From: Verrucomicrobiota bacterium
GTDB taxonomy: Bacteria; Verrucomicrobiota; Verrucomicrobiia; Limisphaerales; UBA9464
Assembly: GCA_947454705.1 (NCBI GenBank)
Contig: CANGKZ010000012.1
Location: 62,001 to 126,000, forward strand
DNA length: 64,000 nucleotides
Direction: 5' to 3'
The notes below the pieces were generated by a model. That model was not told where the DNA came from. It saw nothing but the letters and a program-made list of their open reading frames with translations, and did no database searches. Every line of letters begins with the position of its first letter. Positions within the stretch are counted from its first letter, which is position 1. The position numbers and the translations under genes were made by a program. Below, in pieces: positions 54,908 to 64,000 of this stretch.

Positions 54908-57900
54908 CTAGTTACCATCATTCAGCGGTTGGGTGGACCTCAGGTAGGCAAACAAATCTCGCACTTCCTGGTCCTTAAGACCGCTGAGCAGGCCTTCCGG
55001 CATCAGGGAACTTCCGGTCGGATCCAGATGCACCAATTCCGCCCGCGGAATCGGGACGCTCTGGCCGTCCGGAGTGCGCAAGAGGATCAGCTGCGGATCC
55101 TTGTCCGCCAGGAATCCGGTGAGCGTCCGCCCGTCGCGCGTCTCGACCGAGTATTGTTCGTATCCTTCCCGGATTTCCGCGTTCGGATTCACGATGTTGA
55201 GCAGCAGGGAGCCAAGATCCGACCGTGGATACGGGGTCAGATCCGGCCCGATCTCCGCGCCTTTGCCGAACAGCTTGTGACAAACGCCGCAGGATGCCAT
55301 GAAGAGTTTCTTCCCGGCGTATGGACTTCCCGTGGTGGCTGCAATCACTCCATTAAGCCGCGTGATCTCCGCCTCCAATTCCGCCCCGCCGGCCGGATGG
55401 ATGTTCGGCCACAGACGGGTGGCCCGCTGCGCCACGGCCGAATCCGTCAGGGCCTGCAATTTGCGAACCGTGTCCGACGGAATGGCCGCAGGCGGAATCC
55501 GACCCGCTTCTGCCGCGCTCACCAGACGGGCGGCCAGGTTCGGTCGGCTGGTGAGAAAGCCGAGCAGCGAGGGACGGAGTTCGGTCGGCGCGGCGGGAAA
55601 AAGGGTAACCATTTCCTCCGCGATTTCAGGCGTCGCATACACCTGAAGCGCTCCCAACGCGGCGCGACGCAGTTCCGTTTGGCGGGCATCGCGCACGATG
55701 GAAAGCAGCACAGGGACGGCGCTGGGCTGATGCGTCTCGCCGAACACCTGAATGAATTGAAGGCGCTTCGAGAGGTTGGAATCAGGGGCAGCCACCAGCG
55801 CGAGCGCTTTTTCCACCGCCGCAGGACGGCCGCGTCGGGCGCCGATCAACAGGGATTCGCCGCCGGCTTTTTCCATCGCGTTGAGTAACTCCTCGGGCAG
55901 GCCGGCGAGGGGACGCCCTTGAAACGCTTCCTCGAATCCCTGCGTCAACCGCGCCGTGCTGGTCGCGCCGGGGGAGAGTTCGAACAGTTTTGCGCAGGTG
56001 AACAGATCCTCGCGTCGACCGGTGGCGGCGAAGCGTCGCATGACCCGGGAAAGCAAATGCTGCTCGACCAGCGGAGCCCGCCACAGTTCCCGGTCAGCCA
56101 ACAAGGCGAGCACCGCGTCCCGATGGGTCGCGCACTTGTCCTCGATGGCCCACCAGAGCATGAGCGGCTGACGCGGATCGCGCGCGTCCACGTCGCGTGT
56201 GAGCAGGGAGCGGACGAGGTCCAATCCGGGCCCCGCCGGGAGGCGTCGGGCGGTGGCCGCGAGCTGCGACCGCACCTCGATGCTGGGCTCGGTCAGCCCC
56301 AGCTCCACGAGGCGCTTCCGGATCGGATCAGAAACGGTACGCGCATCGCCCAGCAGGCGGATCGTCCACGCGCGAATCATGGGGTTCGGGTGGGAGAGGA
56401 AATCCAATGCCCGGGCGTCCGAACTCGGTTCAAGACGATGCAGCGCCCAAAAGGCGTCGAGCGCGGTCGTTCCTGAGAGGGCGGCCTTGAGCTGTGGAAC
56501 CAGCGAGGTTTCCTTGCGTTCGCTGATTTGGCGGAGCGCTTCCTGGCGAAGCGTGCGGTTCGGGCTTTGGAGCAGTTCCCCGAGTTTGGATGCGGGAAGG
56601 GACGTGAGATCCGTGGGGCGCGTGGGTTTCGATCCTGCTGCCCGAAGCCGATAGACGCGGCCGTTTGAGGCGTCCATCTGGCCTTCGTGGTTCCGATAAT
56701 GGTTCACCTGCCGGTCGTACCAGTCGGCGACGTAGATCGCTCCATCGGGTCCGAGCTTGATGTCCACGGGACGGAACCATCGATCGTCGGAGGTCACCGG
56801 GAACCCGACATCCCGGGTGCGGAAGCTCGATCCCTCGGGCGTGATCTCGCTCATCACCACGCGGCCCTGCAGAGGCTCCACGCCAAACAGCCGTCCCTCG
56901 TACGCGCCACCGAGTGACCCGCTGTCGTAGATGAGGAAGTTGTGCGTGAAGCGGTCCGCATCGGGGTGCGGCATCTGGGGGAAATAGCCGAAGGCGTACG
57001 GATTCGAGAGCGGGCCGTGTTTGTCGAAGCCCTTTTGAAGATAGGCCCCCTGTTGATAGTGGAAGCCGCGGGTGTTGCCGCCGTTGTGACCGCTGAAGAT
57101 GCGTCCGGCGGAATCCAGTTCGAGACCGAAGGCGTTGCCTCCGCCTTCGCTGAAGACCTCATAAACACGGGTCTCCGGGTGATAGCGCCAGATGTTCTGT
57201 CCCTGCGAATACACGGGCGGTGCGCCGAGCGGTTTCCCGTCTGCGCCGTGCACGCGGATGTTCCCGGTCACGGTCGAGCCCTGGCATCCGTAAAGCCACC
57301 CATCCGGTCCCCAACGCAGCGAGTTGGCAACCGAATGGGTGTCCTCCAGACCAAAGCCCGACAGCAGCACCTGCGGGTTCCCATCGGGAACGTCGTCATG
57401 GTTCGCATCGGGATAGAACAACAGATAGGGCGGATTCAGCACGTACACGCCTCCGGCGGAAAACGCGACGCTGGTGGCGATGTTCAGTCCATCCACAAAG
57501 GTCGTGTGCTTGTCGTACACGCCGGTGCCGCGGGTGTCCTCGTGGATGGTGATGCGGTCGCGTCCGCGAACGTGGTTCGGCGGAGGGGCGGGGACTTTGT
57601 CATAGACCGCGCGCCAGAAGTTGTCGCGGCTCACCATCTTCAATCCCGCCGGATGCGGGTACTGCCGGTACTCGACCACCCAGAGGCGTCCGCGTGCATC
57701 AAAGTTGATAAACACCGGTTGGGCTACCGTGGGTTCCGCGAGGACCTGCTCGAAGACCAGTCCCTCGGCAACATGGAACGCCTTGGCTGAACGCTCCGGG
57801 CTCCAGGGTTCGAGCTGTCCCTCATCCACTTTGGCGGCCGTTGCGACTGGTGTGGTGGTGGTGGAAGCCGGTTTGGCATCGGCCCGCAGCACCGCCTTGC

Positions 57901-59500
57901 CCGCGGCTGCAGGGGGGATGAAGTCATCGAGCGTCCACAGGATTCCGTTCAGCAGCAGGCGTCGAAATTCGGGGTTCCGGAAATCCTCGGGTCCGCCGAG
58001 GGAGGTGTAGAACACGCGGCGGTTGTCGGCCGTGTTCACCCAGGCGACCGGTTCGATTTGCGACGTTCCATCTTCGGTCTGCCCGCGGAGCAGCGGAGTG
58101 ACGGTGTTCTTCAGCTTGCGGCTGCGATACAGGTGCGAGGGAGAGGTGAAGCCGGTCTGCAGGCCGGTGAGAATGGGATGGGCCGCGGTCTCAGCAAACT
58201 GCTTCACCACGGTGGCCTTACCCGGCCCGGTGCCGTAGTGGTCCTGATAATCGGCACCGAACACCTCTTCATCAAAATTGGGCCAGGTTTGTTCGGCGGG
58301 TGCGGTCTGGTTCCGAAGCTCGAAGGAATGAATCGCGGTGCGGATGCCTGCGATCGGTTTGCCGGCGGCGATGTGAGCACGAATGGCCGACATCATTTCC
58401 GCAGGCGGGGCGCGCCGACGGACGCTGAACACCAGCAGGTCCGCCTGCGGGATCACACCCCAGTTGGTGAAGTTGCCATCGCCCTCGCGATTCGAGGCGG
58501 CCACAAAGCTCACCCGGTAGCCGCGCCAAGCCAGTTCCTTGGCGGCGAATTCAGGAAGGGTCTCCCAGGTTCGGTACTCGTTTTCCCCGATCACCATCAC
58601 CACGTGCTTGGGCTTGTCGGCCTTGAATCGAAACGGCGCGCCGCCGAGGAAATCCACGCTCGTGATGCTCGGGCACCAGTAGGATTCGATGTGTTCGGTG
58701 ACCAGTTCCGTGCCCCGAAAATGGGACACCCAGGGGGACTTCCGATGGTTGTACATGCTGTCGGTCATGTCCCGCATCAGCACCACGTTTTGCCCCTGCG
58801 TCACCATCTGCCGGATCGAGAACGGACGGCCAAGGACGCACATGTTGATGTGTACGCCCATCACGATGACGTTGGTGATCCCGCGCTGACGCATGAGGTA
58901 GAAGGCCTCGGTGGAATCGGTGACGGCGTCGCCGGGGAGGATGTCGATTCCTGGGTGCTGACGCGCCCAGGCCTTGAAGCTCGGGCAGTCCGGGCATCCG
59001 TCGCATCCGCCGTCGGAGTCATCGATGGGAAGCTTCGGCTCCGTCCCGCCGTTGAGGGAACACCAGCCTTGGAGCGGGATGGTGGTGGGCACCTTGGGCG
59101 CGGCCTGGGCGAGCTTGCGTCCGGGGTGGTCCTTGTAGAAGTCCATGGTGTCGCTCGGGCAGTGGAGGATGAGCATCCCCTTGGCCCGTGCGGCGCGGAT
59201 GACTTCATTCATGCGCGGCACCAGTTCTCCAACGCGTTCGGTGGCGTCGGGGCAGTGGTGTCGGTCCCACATGTCGCAGATCACCACGGCGGTGCGGGTG
59301 GATTCCCAGTCGAGATTCTTTTCGCCGACCACGAAGGCGTTGGTGTCGGACTGCGATCGGGTTCGGATGCGTCCGTGGAGCGTCACGGATTCGGCGACGG
59401 CGACATCGACCTGAGTGAGGAGCCATGGGACGAGTCCTGCGAGCAGGACCATCCAACCGGGGATCCGGTGAGCCAGGGATCGGTGGGAGGCGGGCGTCAT
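54908..59500 (-). CDS. Five-module secreted fusion: cysteine hydrolase, ThuA, propeller, HEAT, cytochrome c
   Basis: 1530 residues. A signal-like segment lies at 17-36. Residues 68-285 resemble an isochorismatase-type cysteine hydrolase (Asp76 in VVICDMWD, Cys221 in VHINMCVLG), with a CDGCPDC insert at 166-172. About 297-545 is a ThuA-like domain (VVMVIGENEYRTWETLPEF). About 585-960 is a sugar-dehydrogenase-like propeller (FDARGRLWVVEYRQYPHP). HEAT-like helices run to about 1390. The C-terminal cytochrome c has Cys1404, Cys1407, His1408 (CGVCH). Start chosen at 59500. Possibly a periplasmic oxidation enzyme linked to amide or ester chemistry; substrates unknown. Confidence 0.88.
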   Translation of the reverse strand: MTPASHRSLAHRIPGWMVLLAGLVPWLLTQVDVAVAESVTLHGRIRTRSQSDTNAFVVGEKNLDWESTRTAVVICDMWDRHHCPDATERVGELVPRMNEVIRAARAKGMLILHCPSDTMDFYKDHPGRKLAQAAPKVPTTIPLQGWCSLNGGTEPKLPIDDSDGGCDGCPDCPSFKAWARQHPGIDILPGDAVTDSTEAFYLMRQRGITNVIVMGVHINMCVLGRPFSIRQMVTQGQNVVLMRDMTDSMYNHRKSPWVSHFRGTELVTEHIESYWCPSITSVDFLGGAPFRFKADKPKHVVMVIGENEYRTWETLPEFAAKELAWRGYRVSFVAASNREGDGNFTNWGVIPQADLLVFSVRRRAPPAEMMSAIRAHIAAGKPIAGIRTAIHSFELRNQTAPAEQTWPNFDEEVFGADYQDHYGTGPGKATVVKQFAETAAHPILTGLQTGFTSPSHLYRSRKLKNTVTPLLRGQTEDGTSQIEPVAWVNTADNRRVFYTSLGGPEDFRNPEFRRLLLNGILWTLDDFIPPAAAGKAVLRADAKPASTTTTPVATAAKVDEGQLEPWSPERSAKAFHVAEGLVFEQVLAEPTVAQPVFINFDARGRLWVVEYRQYPHPAGLKMVSRDNFWRAVYDKVPAPPPNHVRGRDRITIHEDTRGTGVYDKHTTFVDGLNIATSVAFSAGGVYVLNPPYLLFYPDANHDDVPDGNPQVLLSGFGLEDTHSVANSLRWGPDGWLYGCQGSTVTGNIRVHGADGKPLGAPPVYSQGQNIWRYHPETRVYEVFSEGGGNAFGLELDSAGRIFSGHNGGNTRGFHYQQGAYLQKGFDKHGPLSNPYAFGYFPQMPHPDADRFTHNFLIYDSGSLGGAYEGRLFGVEPLQGRVVMSEITPEGSSFRTRDVGFPVTSDDRWFRPVDIKLGPDGAIYVADWYDRQVNHYRNHEGQMDASNGRVYRLRAAGSKPTRPTDLTSLPASKLGELLQSPNRTLRQEALRQISERKETSLVPQLKAALSGTTALDAFWALHRLEPSSDARALDFLSHPNPMIRAWTIRLLGDARTVSDPIRKRLVELGLTEPSIEVRSQLAATARRLPAGPGLDLVRSLLTRDVDARDPRQPLMLWWAIEDKCATHRDAVLALLADRELWRAPLVEQHLLSRVMRRFAATGRREDLFTCAKLFELSPGATSTARLTQGFEEAFQGRPLAGLPEELLNAMEKAGGESLLIGARRGRPAAVEKALALVAAPDSNLSKRLQFIQVFGETHQPSAVPVLLSIVRDARQTELRRAALGALQVYATPEIAEEMVTLFPAAPTELRPSLLGFLTSRPNLAARLVSAAEAGRIPPAAIPSDTVRKLQALTDSAVAQRATRLWPNIHPAGGAELEAEITRLNGVIAATTGSPYAGKKLFMASCGVCHKLFGKGAEIGPDLTPYPRSDLGSLLLNIVNPNAEIREGYEQYSVETRDGRTLTGFLADKDPQLILLRTPDGQSVPIPRAELVHLDPTGSSLMPEGLLSGLKDQEVRDLFAYLRSTQPLNDGN

Positions 59501-59600
59501 GCGGAAATCATGCGCCGGCCCGCCCGGGAAACCCAAGCGATCTCTTGAGGCAGACGGAAAACCAATTTGGAAAACAGGAAAGCAGGTCGAAGACGGAATT

Positions 59601-60813: not shown

Positions 60814-61251
60814 TTATGGGTGGTTTGCGTTCGGAAGTTGGCAGGATGGGGCGAGGAGCGTGCCAACGATCGGGAGTTCGCCGCGGCGGAGCCAGAGGAC
60901 GATCGATGAGGAAACGAGGACGGTCACGGCGAGGGCGAAGAGCAGTCCTCCGTCATTTTGCACCACGAGCCCCAGCTTGGTGAGGTGTGAAAAGATGGCT
61001 CCGGACATCAGGCCCACCGATAGCCCCGCGCCGAACACGGCGGTGCGGGGAACGAGCAACAACACCACCGCGATCAATTCCATCACACCGGTCCCGATGC
61101 GACCCCACGGTTCGATTCCCAGCGTGGAGAAGATGAAGCGCGATTCAGGAGCGCCGGTGAATTTGAAGAACAACGTCTGGGCGAGGATGACGGCCGAGAC
61201 GACTTGGAGGAATCCGCTGATCCAGCGGTGGGTGCGGCAGGAGCTTTGCAT
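60814..61251 (-). CDS. DoxX family membrane protein
   Basis: This 145-residue protein has four hydrophobic segments (about 13-30, 55-70, 74-90, 103-122) and the DoxX core (ILAQTLFFKFTG, IGTGVMELIAVVLLLVPRTA). DoxX proteins are linked to membrane thiol/oxidative stress. The ATG lies about 9 bases after a promoter motif (61260-61285) shared with the sigma operon, so its mRNA may be nearly leaderless. It follows the second zinc protein gene in the same direction. Confidence 0.88.
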   Translation of the reverse strand: MQSSCRTHRWISGFLQVVSAVILAQTLFFKFTGAPESRFIFSTLGIEPWGRIGTGVMELIAVVLLLVPRTAVFGAGLSVGLMSGAIFSHLTKLGLVVQNDGGLLFALAVTVLVSSSIVLWLRRGELPIVGTLLAPSCQLPNANHP

Positions 61252-61259
61252 GCAAGGGA

Positions 61260-61285
61260 GTCGGAGCTGCCGCCGATTCCTTACA
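61260..61285 (-). promoter_or_regulatory. ECF-type promoter motif before doxX
   Basis: On the minus strand TGTAAGGAATCG (61285-61274), 8 bases, then TCCGAC (61265-61260). The same arrangement occurs at 62681-62706 upstream of the sigma operon. Exact spacing is kept. The motif is best explained as the -35 and -10 of an ECF sigma factor. Confidence 0.65.
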
Positions 61286-61307: not shown

Positions 61308-61631
61308 TTACTGCGAGGCCCGCTCGCAGCGGATGCGTTCCCGGATGCGTTGCTTCGCTTCCTCAGGCAGTCGCGCGCGACCAGATCCCGGCGCGAAATG
61401 CTGACTGCTCTGGGCCGCCGCCTCGTGAAGAAAATCGAGTTGCTGTAAATACCGCGCGCAGGCCTTGCACAGCACGCAGTGAAACCGGATTCGCAGGGAG
61501 ATGATTGGACCGAGGCCGCTGGCTGAATCGATCCGCTGGGATCCGAGCGCGACGATTCGACGGCACGGCGGTGTGAGCGATGCGAGGAACCCGATCAACG
61601 GTTTCTGGATGAATTTCGGAAGCAGGCTCAT
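61308..61631 (-). CDS. Zinc anti-sigma-like protein (ZAS motif), distal
   Basis: 107 residues from the ATG at 61631, which overlaps the sigma gene's stop by 4 bases (ATGA). The zinc motif is His51-x3-Cys55-x2-Cys58 with Cys23 before it, a pattern of zinc-binding anti-sigma (ZAS) proteins. No membrane segment is seen, so it is likely soluble. The rest is basic and helical. It is probably a regulator of the preceding ECF sigma factor. Whether it binds the sigma factor is inference. Confidence 0.75.
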   Translation of the reverse strand: MSLLPKFIQKPLIGFLASLTPPCRRIVALGSQRIDSASGLGPIISLRIRFHCVLCKACARYLQQLDFLHEAAAQSSQHFAPGSGRARLPEEAKQRIRERIRCERASQ

Positions 61632-62254
61632 TCCGCGTCCTCCTCTGCGGATTTGAACCAATGGATTTCCAAACAACGCCGCAGGGCGAGGCGCGCCCGG
61701 TGCAGCATCACCCACAGGTTGTTGGGAGAAATCTTGAGCGTGGAGCAGATTTCATCCGATGAAATGCGGTCCACCTCGCGGAGCAGGAACACCCGGCCGA
61801 TGCGGTCGGGTAGTTTTCCCGAGCACTGATGGAAGACTTTCCAGAATTCCTCCCGGTCGAGTGAGGATCCGGCATCGGTCCATTCTGAGGGAGCGTGGGC
61901 CGGGTTCCAGTGGTCGGGATATTCCTGGTTTTCGAACGTCCGCTCCTCCTCGTCGGTGAAGAATTCCAGATCGGTGAAATTCGTCTCCCGGCCGGCGACC
62001 CGAAAATGATCCAGCACCTTGTTGCGGAGGATGCCGGCGAGCCAGGTGCGTTCCGTCGATCGCCCCTGATACCGGTCCATTCCACGAAGTCCGGCGAGCA
62101 GCGTTTCCTGCACGAAATCCTCGGCCAGGGAGGCATCGCGCAGGCGCGACAACGCGAAGTGGAACAGGTAGTCGCCGTGTTCATCGACCCAGCGTTCGGG
62201 ATCAGGCCGCGACTCCGGCCGGAGACCTGCGGGGGATTGCGTGAGTTCAGGCAT
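61628..62254 (-). CDS. ECF RNA polymerase sigma factor
   Basis: This 208-residue sigma-70-family factor has region 2 (HFALSRLRDASLAEDFVQETLLAGLRG, near 30-60) and region 4 (VFLLREVDRISSDEICSTLKISPNNLWVMLHRARLALRRCL). Region 4 carries the expected helix-turn-helix. It overlaps the upstream zinc protein gene by 8 bases and the downstream one by 4 bases, forming one translationally coupled operon. The shared promoter motif at 62681-62706 and 61260-61285 suggests it recognises TGTAAGG...TCCGAC. Confidence 0.94.
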   Translation of the reverse strand: MPELTQSPAGLRPESRPDPERWVDEHGDYLFHFALSRLRDASLAEDFVQETLLAGLRGMDRYQGRSTERTWLAGILRNKVLDHFRVAGRETNFTDLEFFTDEEERTFENQEYPDHWNPAHAPSEWTDAGSSLDREEFWKVFHQCSGKLPDRIGRVFLLREVDRISSDEICSTLKISPNNLWVMLHRARLALRRCLEIHWFKSAEEDAE

Positions 62255-62630
62255 GGGGGGCGTTGGAGTCGGAGTCGGAAGAGGTATTGCCCGTCAGGGG
62301 CGCAGCCGCAGCGGCGGCTGCGAGCTTTTGTTTCATGCGTGTGCGCGTGTCGGCAGCAAGCGGCGGAGATGTGGGGGCTGAAGCACTGGATTCCGATGCA
62401 TGGGCGTGGATCCATTTCACCTGACGGCGATACCGTCGGCACAAACGACAGAACAGCAGGTGAAGCCAGATCCCCGGTTGGCGCCACCACGGAACGGGTT
62501 CATCCAGTCGATCCGAACTATGCCGGGTCATCTCCCGACACGTCGGCAGCAGAACTCCCCGCAGCCCGGTTTTGGGCGGCGCGGGGTCGAAGCCGGCTCT
62601 CGAGTCGTTTGCCATCAGGATCTTTGGCAT
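62247..62630 (-). CDS. Zinc anti-sigma-like protein (ZAS motif), proximal
   Basis: 127 residues, with a ZAS-type motif: Cys31, then His57-x3-Cys61-x2-Cys64 (LHLLFCRLCRRYRRQ). There is no membrane segment. The C-terminal part is Ser/Ala-rich. It is the first gene of the sigma operon and overlaps the sigma gene by 8 bases; the promoter motif is about 50 bases upstream. It is probably an anti-sigma factor. The start could be Met6 at 62615. Confidence 0.78.
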   Translation of the reverse strand: MPKILMANDSRAGFDPAPPKTGLRGVLLPTCREMTRHSSDRLDEPVPWWRQPGIWLHLLFCRLCRRYRRQVKWIHAHASESSASAPTSPPLAADTRTRMKQKLAAAAAAAPLTGNTSSDSDSNAPHA

Positions 62631-62680: not shown

Positions 62681-62706
62681 GTCGGATTCCGCCACGAATC
62701 CTTACA
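62681..62706 (-). promoter_or_regulatory. ECF-type promoter motif before the sigma operon
   Basis: On the minus strand TGTAAGGATTCG (62706-62695), 8 bases, then TCCGAC (62686-62681). The core matches the doxX motif at one position less than perfect, with identical spacing. This suggests that the sigma factor regulates its own operon. Confidence 0.65.
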
Positions 62707-62722
62707 ACCTATTTCAATCGAT

Positions 62723-63946
62723 TCATCGAGTCAGGAGCGAGACCGCAGTTCCCACCGTACCGCAAAGCAGAATCAACCAGGCGGAGGGGACCTTGCATCG
62801 GACGATCGCCCACCACGATCCCACCAGGCAGACGGCGGTGGTGAGGTTTCTCGGCACCTGCCAGGCGAGTTGTCCCGACACCACGGCCATCAAGCCGAGG
62901 GACGCCAGATTGACGCCATCGAGGAAACGTCGGGCCACGGGAGATTCCCGGAGCGTGGCGAGGATCCAGCTTCCCGCCGCTACAAAACAAAACGCCGGGA
63001 GAAAGATGCCAACGGTGGCGGCGCCGGCGCCGGTTCCCCCGTGGAGCAAATAGCCGATGAACGTGGCGGTGCTGAACACGGGCCCCGGGGTGAATTGACC
63101 GACGGCAATGGCATCGAGCAATTGCCGTTCGGTCAGCCAGTGGGCGCGTTCCACGAAATCGGCGCGGAGAAACGCCAGCAGCACGTATCCGCTTCCAAAC
63201 AGAACCGAGCCGGTTTTCAGAAAGATCAGGAACAATTTGCCCGCGGTCACCGGTCCCGAGGCCAGAGCGATGGAGCTCCCGCCGGACAGGACGGGAATCC
63301 AGGCCAATGGCCCCGATTTGGACGGTGTATCAGAAATGGGGCGGCGCGGGGCGGGGGACTGAATCAGTTGGAGGGCGACTCCAGCGAGCAGCAGCACGAC
63401 AAGCTCATGCGCCCCGAGCAGTGCGGCCACGGCGGAGGCGAGGGCGAGGGCTCCGTGGACGCGGGTGCGGATGGCGCTGCGGCCGAGTCCGAGCAGGGCC
63501 TGACCAAGGATGACCAGGATGACCGGTTGGATGGCGTTCATGGCGCCGCGGAGCTCGGGGAGTCGGCCCCACTGGACGTAGCTCCAGGCGATTGCCGTGG
63601 TGATCAGTGCGGCAGGCAGGATGAAGCAGAATCCGGCAACGATCAGTCCCGGCCAGCCTGCCCGTTTGTGTCCGAGGAACAACGCCAGTTCGGTGGAATT
63701 GGGCCCGGGAATGAGATTCGCGGCGCCGAGCAGATCGAGGAAGTCCTCCCGACTGAGCCAGCGACGGCGTTGAACGAGTTCATTCTCCATCAAGGCCACG
63801 TGAGCGGCCGGCCCGCCGAACGCGGTGGTGCCCAATCGAAGAAACACCGAAGCCACCTCCGCCAGTCGCTGCCGAGCCGAGCCGGTGGGCTCCGCCGAGG
63901 AGGAGGCGAGTGGAGCGAAGTCAGGTGTGGAACCGGGATCGGACAT
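62723..63946 (-). CDS. chrA: Chromate transporter ChrA (two-domain type)
   Basis: This 407-residue membrane protein has two repeated Chromate_transp domains (about 30-190 and 220-390). The first has FLRLGTTAFGGPAAHVALMENELVQRRRW and ANLIPGPNSTELALFLGH. The second has FLKTGSVLFGSGYVLLAFLR and QFTPGPVFSTATFIGYL. Such proteins export chromate by proton-coupled transport, and some carry sulfate or other anions. The ATG at 63946 is chosen; an in-frame upstream ATG at 63994 adds a basic 16-residue stretch. It stands upstream of the sigma operon in the same direction. Confidence 0.9.
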   Translation of the reverse strand: MSDPGSTPDFAPLASSSAEPTGSARQRLAEVASVFLRLGTTAFGGPAAHVALMENELVQRRRWLSREDFLDLLGAANLIPGPNSTELALFLGHKRAGWPGLIVAGFCFILPAALITTAIAWSYVQWGRLPELRGAMNAIQPVILVILGQALLGLGRSAIRTRVHGALALASAVAALLGAHELVVLLLAGVALQLIQSPAPRRPISDTPSKSGPLAWIPVLSGGSSIALASGPVTAGKLFLIFLKTGSVLFGSGYVLLAFLRADFVERAHWLTERQLLDAIAVGQFTPGPVFSTATFIGYLLHGGTGAGAATVGIFLPAFCFVAAGSWILATLRESPVARRFLDGVNLASLGLMAVVSGQLAWQVPRNLTTAVCLVGSWWAIVRCKVPSAWLILLCGTVGTAVSLLTR

Positions 63947-64000
63947 CGACGGTGCGAGTCTGATCACCGGGCGATTTCGGGCAAGAGGAGGCAATCAATT

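Follow-up and report, generated by a model that had tools for sequence, protein, structure and literature searches.

ECF sigma factors are usually described with one anti-sigma factor each. In Bacillus subtilis, a single ECF sigma factor, sigmaM, is held by YhdL and YhdK, two membrane-acting proteins that do not form a pair of ZAS paralogues. An ECF sigma factor combined with a soluble ZAS protein and an msr regulon is already a known kind of system. In Neisseria meningitidis, the ECF sigma factor sigmaE (NMB2144) is encoded with a small ZAS protein, MseR (NMB2145), directly downstream; MseR carries the pattern Cys-26-His-x3-Cys-x2-Cys and needs its Cys ligands, and the targets of sigmaE are MsrA/MsrB and the operon that encodes it, which includes a DoxX-like gene (excerpts of PMC2893595). 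The same excerpts report no response of this system to peroxide, diamide, or singlet oxygen (PMC2893595). In Haemophilus influenzae, the ECF sigma factor RpoE2 is paired with HrsE, a cytoplasmic ZAS protein of 67 amino acids, and controls MsrAB and a DoxX gene cluster; the link to hypochlorite belongs to this organism (excerpts of PMC7907618). RsrA, which is paired with sigmaR in Streptomyces coelicolor, has CHCC zinc ligands (excerpts of PMC2893595) and is a soluble redox-sensing anti-sigma factor in which the first Cys forms the trigger disulfide with one of the final two (excerpts of PMC4960319).

The locus analyzed here lies in a 64,000-nucleotide stretch of a Verrucomicrobiota genome, the whole of which we call the window. 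Its sigma factor gene is accompanied by a ZAS gene directly downstream, as in Neisseria, and the ligand pattern of its ZAS proteins is that of MseR and RsrA, with the same Cys-26-His spacing in U. The regulon predicted here resembles those of sigmaE and RpoE2 and differs from that of sigmaR. A promoter-like motif found at the locus is similar to the Neisseria sigmaE promoter elements GTMAGBWTT and CGTCTAAH, with CGAC in place of CGTC in the -10-like element and, in Neisseria, a spacer of 12 to 13 nt between the longer elements (excerpts of PMC2893595). Two traits of the Neisseria sigmaE/Haemophilus RpoE2 type, a ZAS gene next to the sigma factor gene and the motif before an msr gene, are present. 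The trait that is absent is one ZAS protein per sigma factor: sigmaE-MseR, RpoE2/HrsE, and sigmaR-RsrA each have one, whereas the present locus and 21 others among the 64 of its order encode two. The literature searched, which did not extend to the large ECF reclassification, contained no description of two anti-sigma factors per ECF sigma factor, and no two-anti-sigma ECF system is described in the excerpts of PMC10733313 and PMC2877774.

Organization and occurrence of the locus

The whole three-gene cluster is on the minus strand, in the order U, sigma factor, D. The sigma factor gene (positions 61628 to 62254; 208 amino acids) encodes an ECF-type protein of the TIGR02943 family (189.8 bits; NCBIfam cutoff, 162.2), with both Sigma70_r2 and Sigma70_r4_2 above the Pfam cutoffs. 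Across the whole genome, 17 TIGR02943 matches were obtained at an E value of 1e-3, one of them above the cutoff, and other ECF-like sigma factors are present. The flanking genes, U upstream (62247 to 62630, minus strand; 127 amino acids) and D downstream (61308 to 61631, minus strand; 107 amino acids), encode predicted soluble ZAS-type anti-sigma proteins. We took the ATG at 61631 as the start of D, which begins at a GTG at 61715 in the mechanical list of open reading frames (ORFs). A sequence-only reading of the window had proposed that all three genes overlap, and the overlaps of 8 bases between U and the sigma factor gene and 4 bases between the latter and D were both confirmed. Overlaps of ZAS genes with the sigma factor gene recur in relatives.

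A gene of the chromate transporter family (TIGR00937, 306 bits) lies directly upstream of the operon (62723 to 63994, minus strand). On the other side, the operon is followed by a gene for a DoxX_2 membrane protein, a predicted target of the sigma factor (60814 to 61251, minus strand; Pfam DoxX_2, 32.9 bits; cutoff, 26.3), and then by a frame of 1,542 amino acids (54908 to 59536, minus strand) that by eye resembles a large secreted protein, one end of which is cytochrome-c-like.

U matched the NCBIfam family NF052368 (antisigmaE) at 54.4 bits, above the cutoff of 50, and D matched it at 33.0 bits (E value, 3.9e-8), below that cutoff. Across the 5.4-Mb genome, good matches to NF052368 were found at U and D only (third match, E value of 0.22), and a Pfam search of U and D returned nothing above the cutoff for either protein. 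The His-x3-Cys-x2-Cys pattern with an upstream Cys, noticed in both proteins by the sequence-only reading, corresponds to ligands C31, H57, C61, and C64 in U and C23, H51, C55, and C58 in D. Its conservation in relatives also held: the four ligands are unchanged in every one of the 13 U and 16 D sequences, which were gathered with a profile that had proteins of this kind as its seed and do not include two decayed copies. The spacing Cys-26-His occurs in 79 of 80 ZAS domains; the sole exception is D of the window, with 28.

Structure models of U and D (pLDDT, 76.5 and 82.8) both contain four helices, as does a class I anti-sigma domain, in which a bundle of three is joined by a fourth that embraces the sigma factor. 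Foldseek returned no significant match for either model. A second fold comparison ranked RsiW (5wuq) first for both proteins with low scores (Z of 6.3, rmsd of 5.7, and 70 aligned residues for D, where the next row scored 3.9; Z of 2.0 for U). Profile searches of solved structures for the two proteins gave nothing meaningful, with best E values of 0.94 and 0.1, both to unrelated proteins.

Genome contigs were scanned with a profile from 13 aligned sigma factors, which yielded 343 relatives, and the best 80, most of them from Verrucomicrobiota, were kept. Among these best 80 of 343, an upstream ZAS gene was present in 12 and at least two downstream ZAS genes in 14; two of the latter had the second ZAS gene 2.5 to 2.8 kb away, and three, from Acidobacteriota, had two ZAS genes close together. 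Within the window's order, where scoring covered the 10 best candidates of each genome, the sigma factor was found at an E value of 1e-40 or better in 60 of 320 genomes, at 64 loci. Two ZAS genes were present at 22 of these loci, one at 39, and none at 3, one of which ends 142 bases past the sigma factor gene. A single anti-sigma factor is thus the commoner state among relatives, as the sequence-only reading had held for ECF operons. The single ZAS genes are downstream of the sigma factor gene at 38 loci and upstream at 1. Two-ZAS loci either have the genes flanking the sigma factor gene (12 loci, 10 of them in the window's family) or in tandem after it (10 loci). The flanked arrangement seen in the window therefore recurs at 12 of 64 sigma factor loci of the order, which is more than chance. 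Of the 12 flanked loci, 8 have a DoxX gene downstream in the same orientation, and three of the four loci without a DoxX match have at most 2,500 bases of downstream sequence.

Some loci depart from these arrangements. At L035 and L036 (genomes G008 and G021), no upstream ZAS gene is present, and its place is taken by a frame that looks flavodoxin-like by eye. The sigma factor matches at L131 (G112) and L178 (G083) contain an in-frame stop, TAG and TAA, respectively. The ZAS genes of the Acidobacteriota loci L095, L096, and L109 are also in tandem; most such genes group among themselves in the tree, which suggests that these tandems arose by separate duplications.

Two probable types of ZAS genes

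The second of two trees, built from 80 ZAS domains of the order's loci, placed the 13 upstream genes in one clade (support, 100/96). This clade, together with 9 second genes of tandem pairs and 16 single genes, forms a larger group (97/85) that we call type B and to which U belongs. Type A comprises the D genes of the 12 flanked loci, 8 first genes of tandem pairs, and 10 single genes (bootstrap, 96; SH-aLRT, 22). Every pair with both members placed in the tree (20 of 20) consists of one A and one B gene. Two tandem pairs could not be assigned. The pair at L178, which looks degenerate, and the first gene at L142 were removed before this tree was built. In the first tree, of 97 rows after the removal of four short or frame-broken ZAS rows, the upstream clade was again recovered (100/98), beside the same relatives with weaker support (85/72).

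Profiles built from the tandem genes alone gave a similar division, with 10 of 13 upstream genes preferring B and 11 of 12 downstream genes preferring A. The exception among the downstream genes is D of the window, which scores 6 bits nearer B by profile, though it falls on the A side of the tree. The A/B split has moderate support from these comparisons and is likely, not proven, because the AU test rejects neither a swapped pairing (P = 0.258) nor an origin of U by late duplication of D in place of an old split (P = 0.096). Bootstrap values and gene order point away from such a late duplication.

A promoter-like motif and the predicted regulon

Spaced words were counted over 62 regions upstream of operons. 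The word TGTAA-N17-CGAC occurred in 12 of the 62 regions, whereas no word exceeded 6 regions in any of eight shuffled sets. In the window, TGTAAG-N16-CGAC is present twice (0.03 expected), and none of 100 shuffles contained at least two copies. Both copies, in the longer form TGTAAGG-N15-CGAC, are on the minus strand: one at 62681 to 62706, 50 nt before U, and the other at 61260 to 61285, 8 nt before the DoxX gene. The site before U was part of the motif discovery set, and that before the DoxX gene is outside it.

The presence of the motif tracks the two ZAS types, for which the labels used in the motif and spacing counts were assigned by hand from the tree. A copy is present in the 230 nt upstream of 32 of the 38 B-type genes and of none of the 30 A-type and 12 other ZAS genes, and the reversed pattern is found upstream of no gene in any of the three groups. 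The exact motif is lacking at 4 of 13 U genes. The next ORF past the motif is a ZAS gene at 29 loci and the sigma factor gene at 5. A-type genes are directly behind the sigma factor gene, with little room for a promoter, whereas B-type genes that are single or second in a tandem follow an intergenic gap that holds the motif; the lack of the motif at A-type genes is thus partly forced by the sigma factor coding sequence in front of them. The motif before U is probably a sigma-dependent promoter of the operon, and it may simply be the autoregulatory one. This promoter-like motif, TGTAAGG-N15-CGAC, and its placement before B-type and not A-type genes are new in this analysis.

The window's genome contains seven motif sites, each 8 to 50 nt before an ORF of at least 127 amino acids. 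The genes that follow encode an MsrB-MsrA fusion (31 nt past the motif), VTT, DinB-like, YHS, DUF1223, and DoxX proteins, and the operon itself. In Pfam searches of these predicted targets, SelR plus PMSR, VTT, DinB, DUF1223, and DoxX_2 were above the cutoff and YHS was just below it. The raw number of sites in the genome, seven, is not above that of the backward-read control, nine, so the evidence for a regulon is the placement of the sites and the contrast between genomes. TGTAAGG-N15-CGAC occurs at 45 sites in 13 genomes that carry the sigma factor, on a list entered by hand from the sigma factor profile search, and at 24 sites in 44 genomes without it (P = 5e-8). Genome G050, with a weak sigma factor match, was left out of this contrast; when it is counted among those without the sigma factor (28 sites in 45 genomes), P is 1.2e-7. 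An ORF of at least 120 amino acids starts within 60 nt of the site in 20 of 30 cases in the other sigma-bearing genomes, one of the 30 (in G017) being the module's own promoter, and in 5 of 24 cases elsewhere (P = 9e-4).

DinB-like, YHS, DoxX, and Msr genes recur behind the motif in the other sigma-bearing genomes, as judged by eye or from BLAST clusters. There are exceptions. G001, which is 54% complete and without the sigma factor, carries a site (L225) ahead of a DinB-like gene, and a common gene family follows the motif, by eye, in G003 (L224), without the sigma factor, and G010 (L195), and likewise in G049 (L218) and G007 (L191).

The start codons of five YHS-domain genes (L184, L193, L199, L206, and L207) are exactly 10 nt past CGAC, and those of the DoxX, VTT, and DUF1223 genes are 8 to 9 nt past it. 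Transcripts from the motif promoter may be nearly leaderless.

A proposed lock and brake and the alternatives

With somewhat better than even confidence, we read the locus as controlling a redox-type repair regulon in which a type A lock is made with the sigma factor and a type B protein is a sigma-induced brake. The module would be a soluble zinc-type sigma/anti-sigma switch for the repair of oxidized, mainly exported or membrane, proteins, with two old ZAS paralogues standing where one is usual. U and D would both bind and inhibit the sigma factor. The sigma factor probably binds either one or the other at any time, because both models retain the four helices and the published class I domain contacts sigma4 with helix 1 and sigma2 with helix 4 (excerpts of PMC7406223). 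D, made with the sigma factor from overlapping genes, would be the standing lock and would release the sigma factor upon oxidation of its CHCC zinc site, as in RsrA. U, expressed from the sigma-dependent promoter, would be the induced brake, rising with the response and closing it. The published work on MseR, HrsE, and RsrA is the ground for assigning D and U these roles. The B gene of the window's lineage precedes the sigma factor gene, so its promoter would also drive the sigma factor and D and thereby give the loop a positive and a negative arm. A HOCl or methionine-oxidation signal for this module is suggested by analogy. Weighing against the reading, the MseR system gave no response to the oxidants used in Neisseria, the A/B split has incomplete support, and the motif before U may serve autoregulation of the operon and no more. 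The fuller scenario, in which the A protein senses oxidants, the B protein ends the response, and the brake gene moved to a position before the sigma factor gene, is one that we hold tentatively, at somewhat less than even odds.

U and D might instead be two parallel sensors, both standing anti-sigma factors released by different signals, such as oxidants or metals, as the sequence-only reading had suggested. The tree indicates that the two diverged long ago, and an extra C-terminal Cys is present in D of the window's lineage (14 of 16 sequences), whereas 10 of 13 U proteins have no Cys past the ZAS motif, a difference that would allow different sensing by U and D. However, with the same interface, both proteins would need to be inactivated before the sigma factor is free, unless their doses differ, and the promoter contrast between the types points to a difference in expression. 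We consider this arrangement unlikely.

Another possibility is that U is a redundant paralogue that is being lost. Among close relatives, from which pairs were taken because the window's own pairs are too diverged, dN/dS was 0.31 to 0.40 for U (3 pairs), 0.08 to 0.27 for D (6 pairs), and 0.02 to 0.08 for the sigma factor (6 pairs); in the same three pairs as U, D gave 0.19 to 0.27, so U evolves faster. The upstream ZAS gene is absent at L052 and L057, a deletion at L061 took its core including the zinc motif and left the downstream gene intact, and helix 4 of U looks degenerate at L059, L060, and L063. Nevertheless, dN/dS of U is well below 1, its ligands are invariant, and the C-terminal helix is confident in the model of the window's U. 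At L054, moreover, it is the downstream gene that has decayed, with a premature stop and no recognizable zinc motif, and the upstream gene that is intact. Gradual loss of U is thus a doubtful explanation, and we give it little weight.

The reciprocal decay at L061, where U is lost, and L054, where D is lost, is also the reason why either ZAS protein alone seems enough. This bears on the idea of a double lock, also raised by the sequence-only reading, in which U and D would sit on one sigma factor together, one on sigma4 and the other on sigma2. Some ZAS proteins do prefer one sigma factor domain, as RslA mainly binds sigma4 (excerpts of PMC2877774), but all four helices are kept in both models and either protein can be missing in relatives, which makes simultaneous binding less likely, indeed quite improbable. 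Least credible, at a very low probability, is that only U or D controls this sigma factor while the other serves another ECF sigma factor, of which the genome's further TIGR02943 matches offer candidates, or some other role, given the recurrent overlaps with the sigma factor gene and the lack of any other good ZAS match in the genome.

Two distinct and separately conserved predicted anti-sigma factors recur within one order, and their predicted promoters differ systematically. The predicted promoter and regulon would extend methionine sulfoxide repair control of the Neisseria/Haemophilus type to Verrucomicrobiota. The natural variants (A only, B only, tandem, and flanking) allow the effect of each piece to be compared, and the promoter difference between A and B offers a handle on how such a response starts and stops. 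If the proposed mechanism is true, the move of the brake gene to a position before the sigma factor gene would have turned a brake-only feedback into a combined positive and negative loop without any new part.
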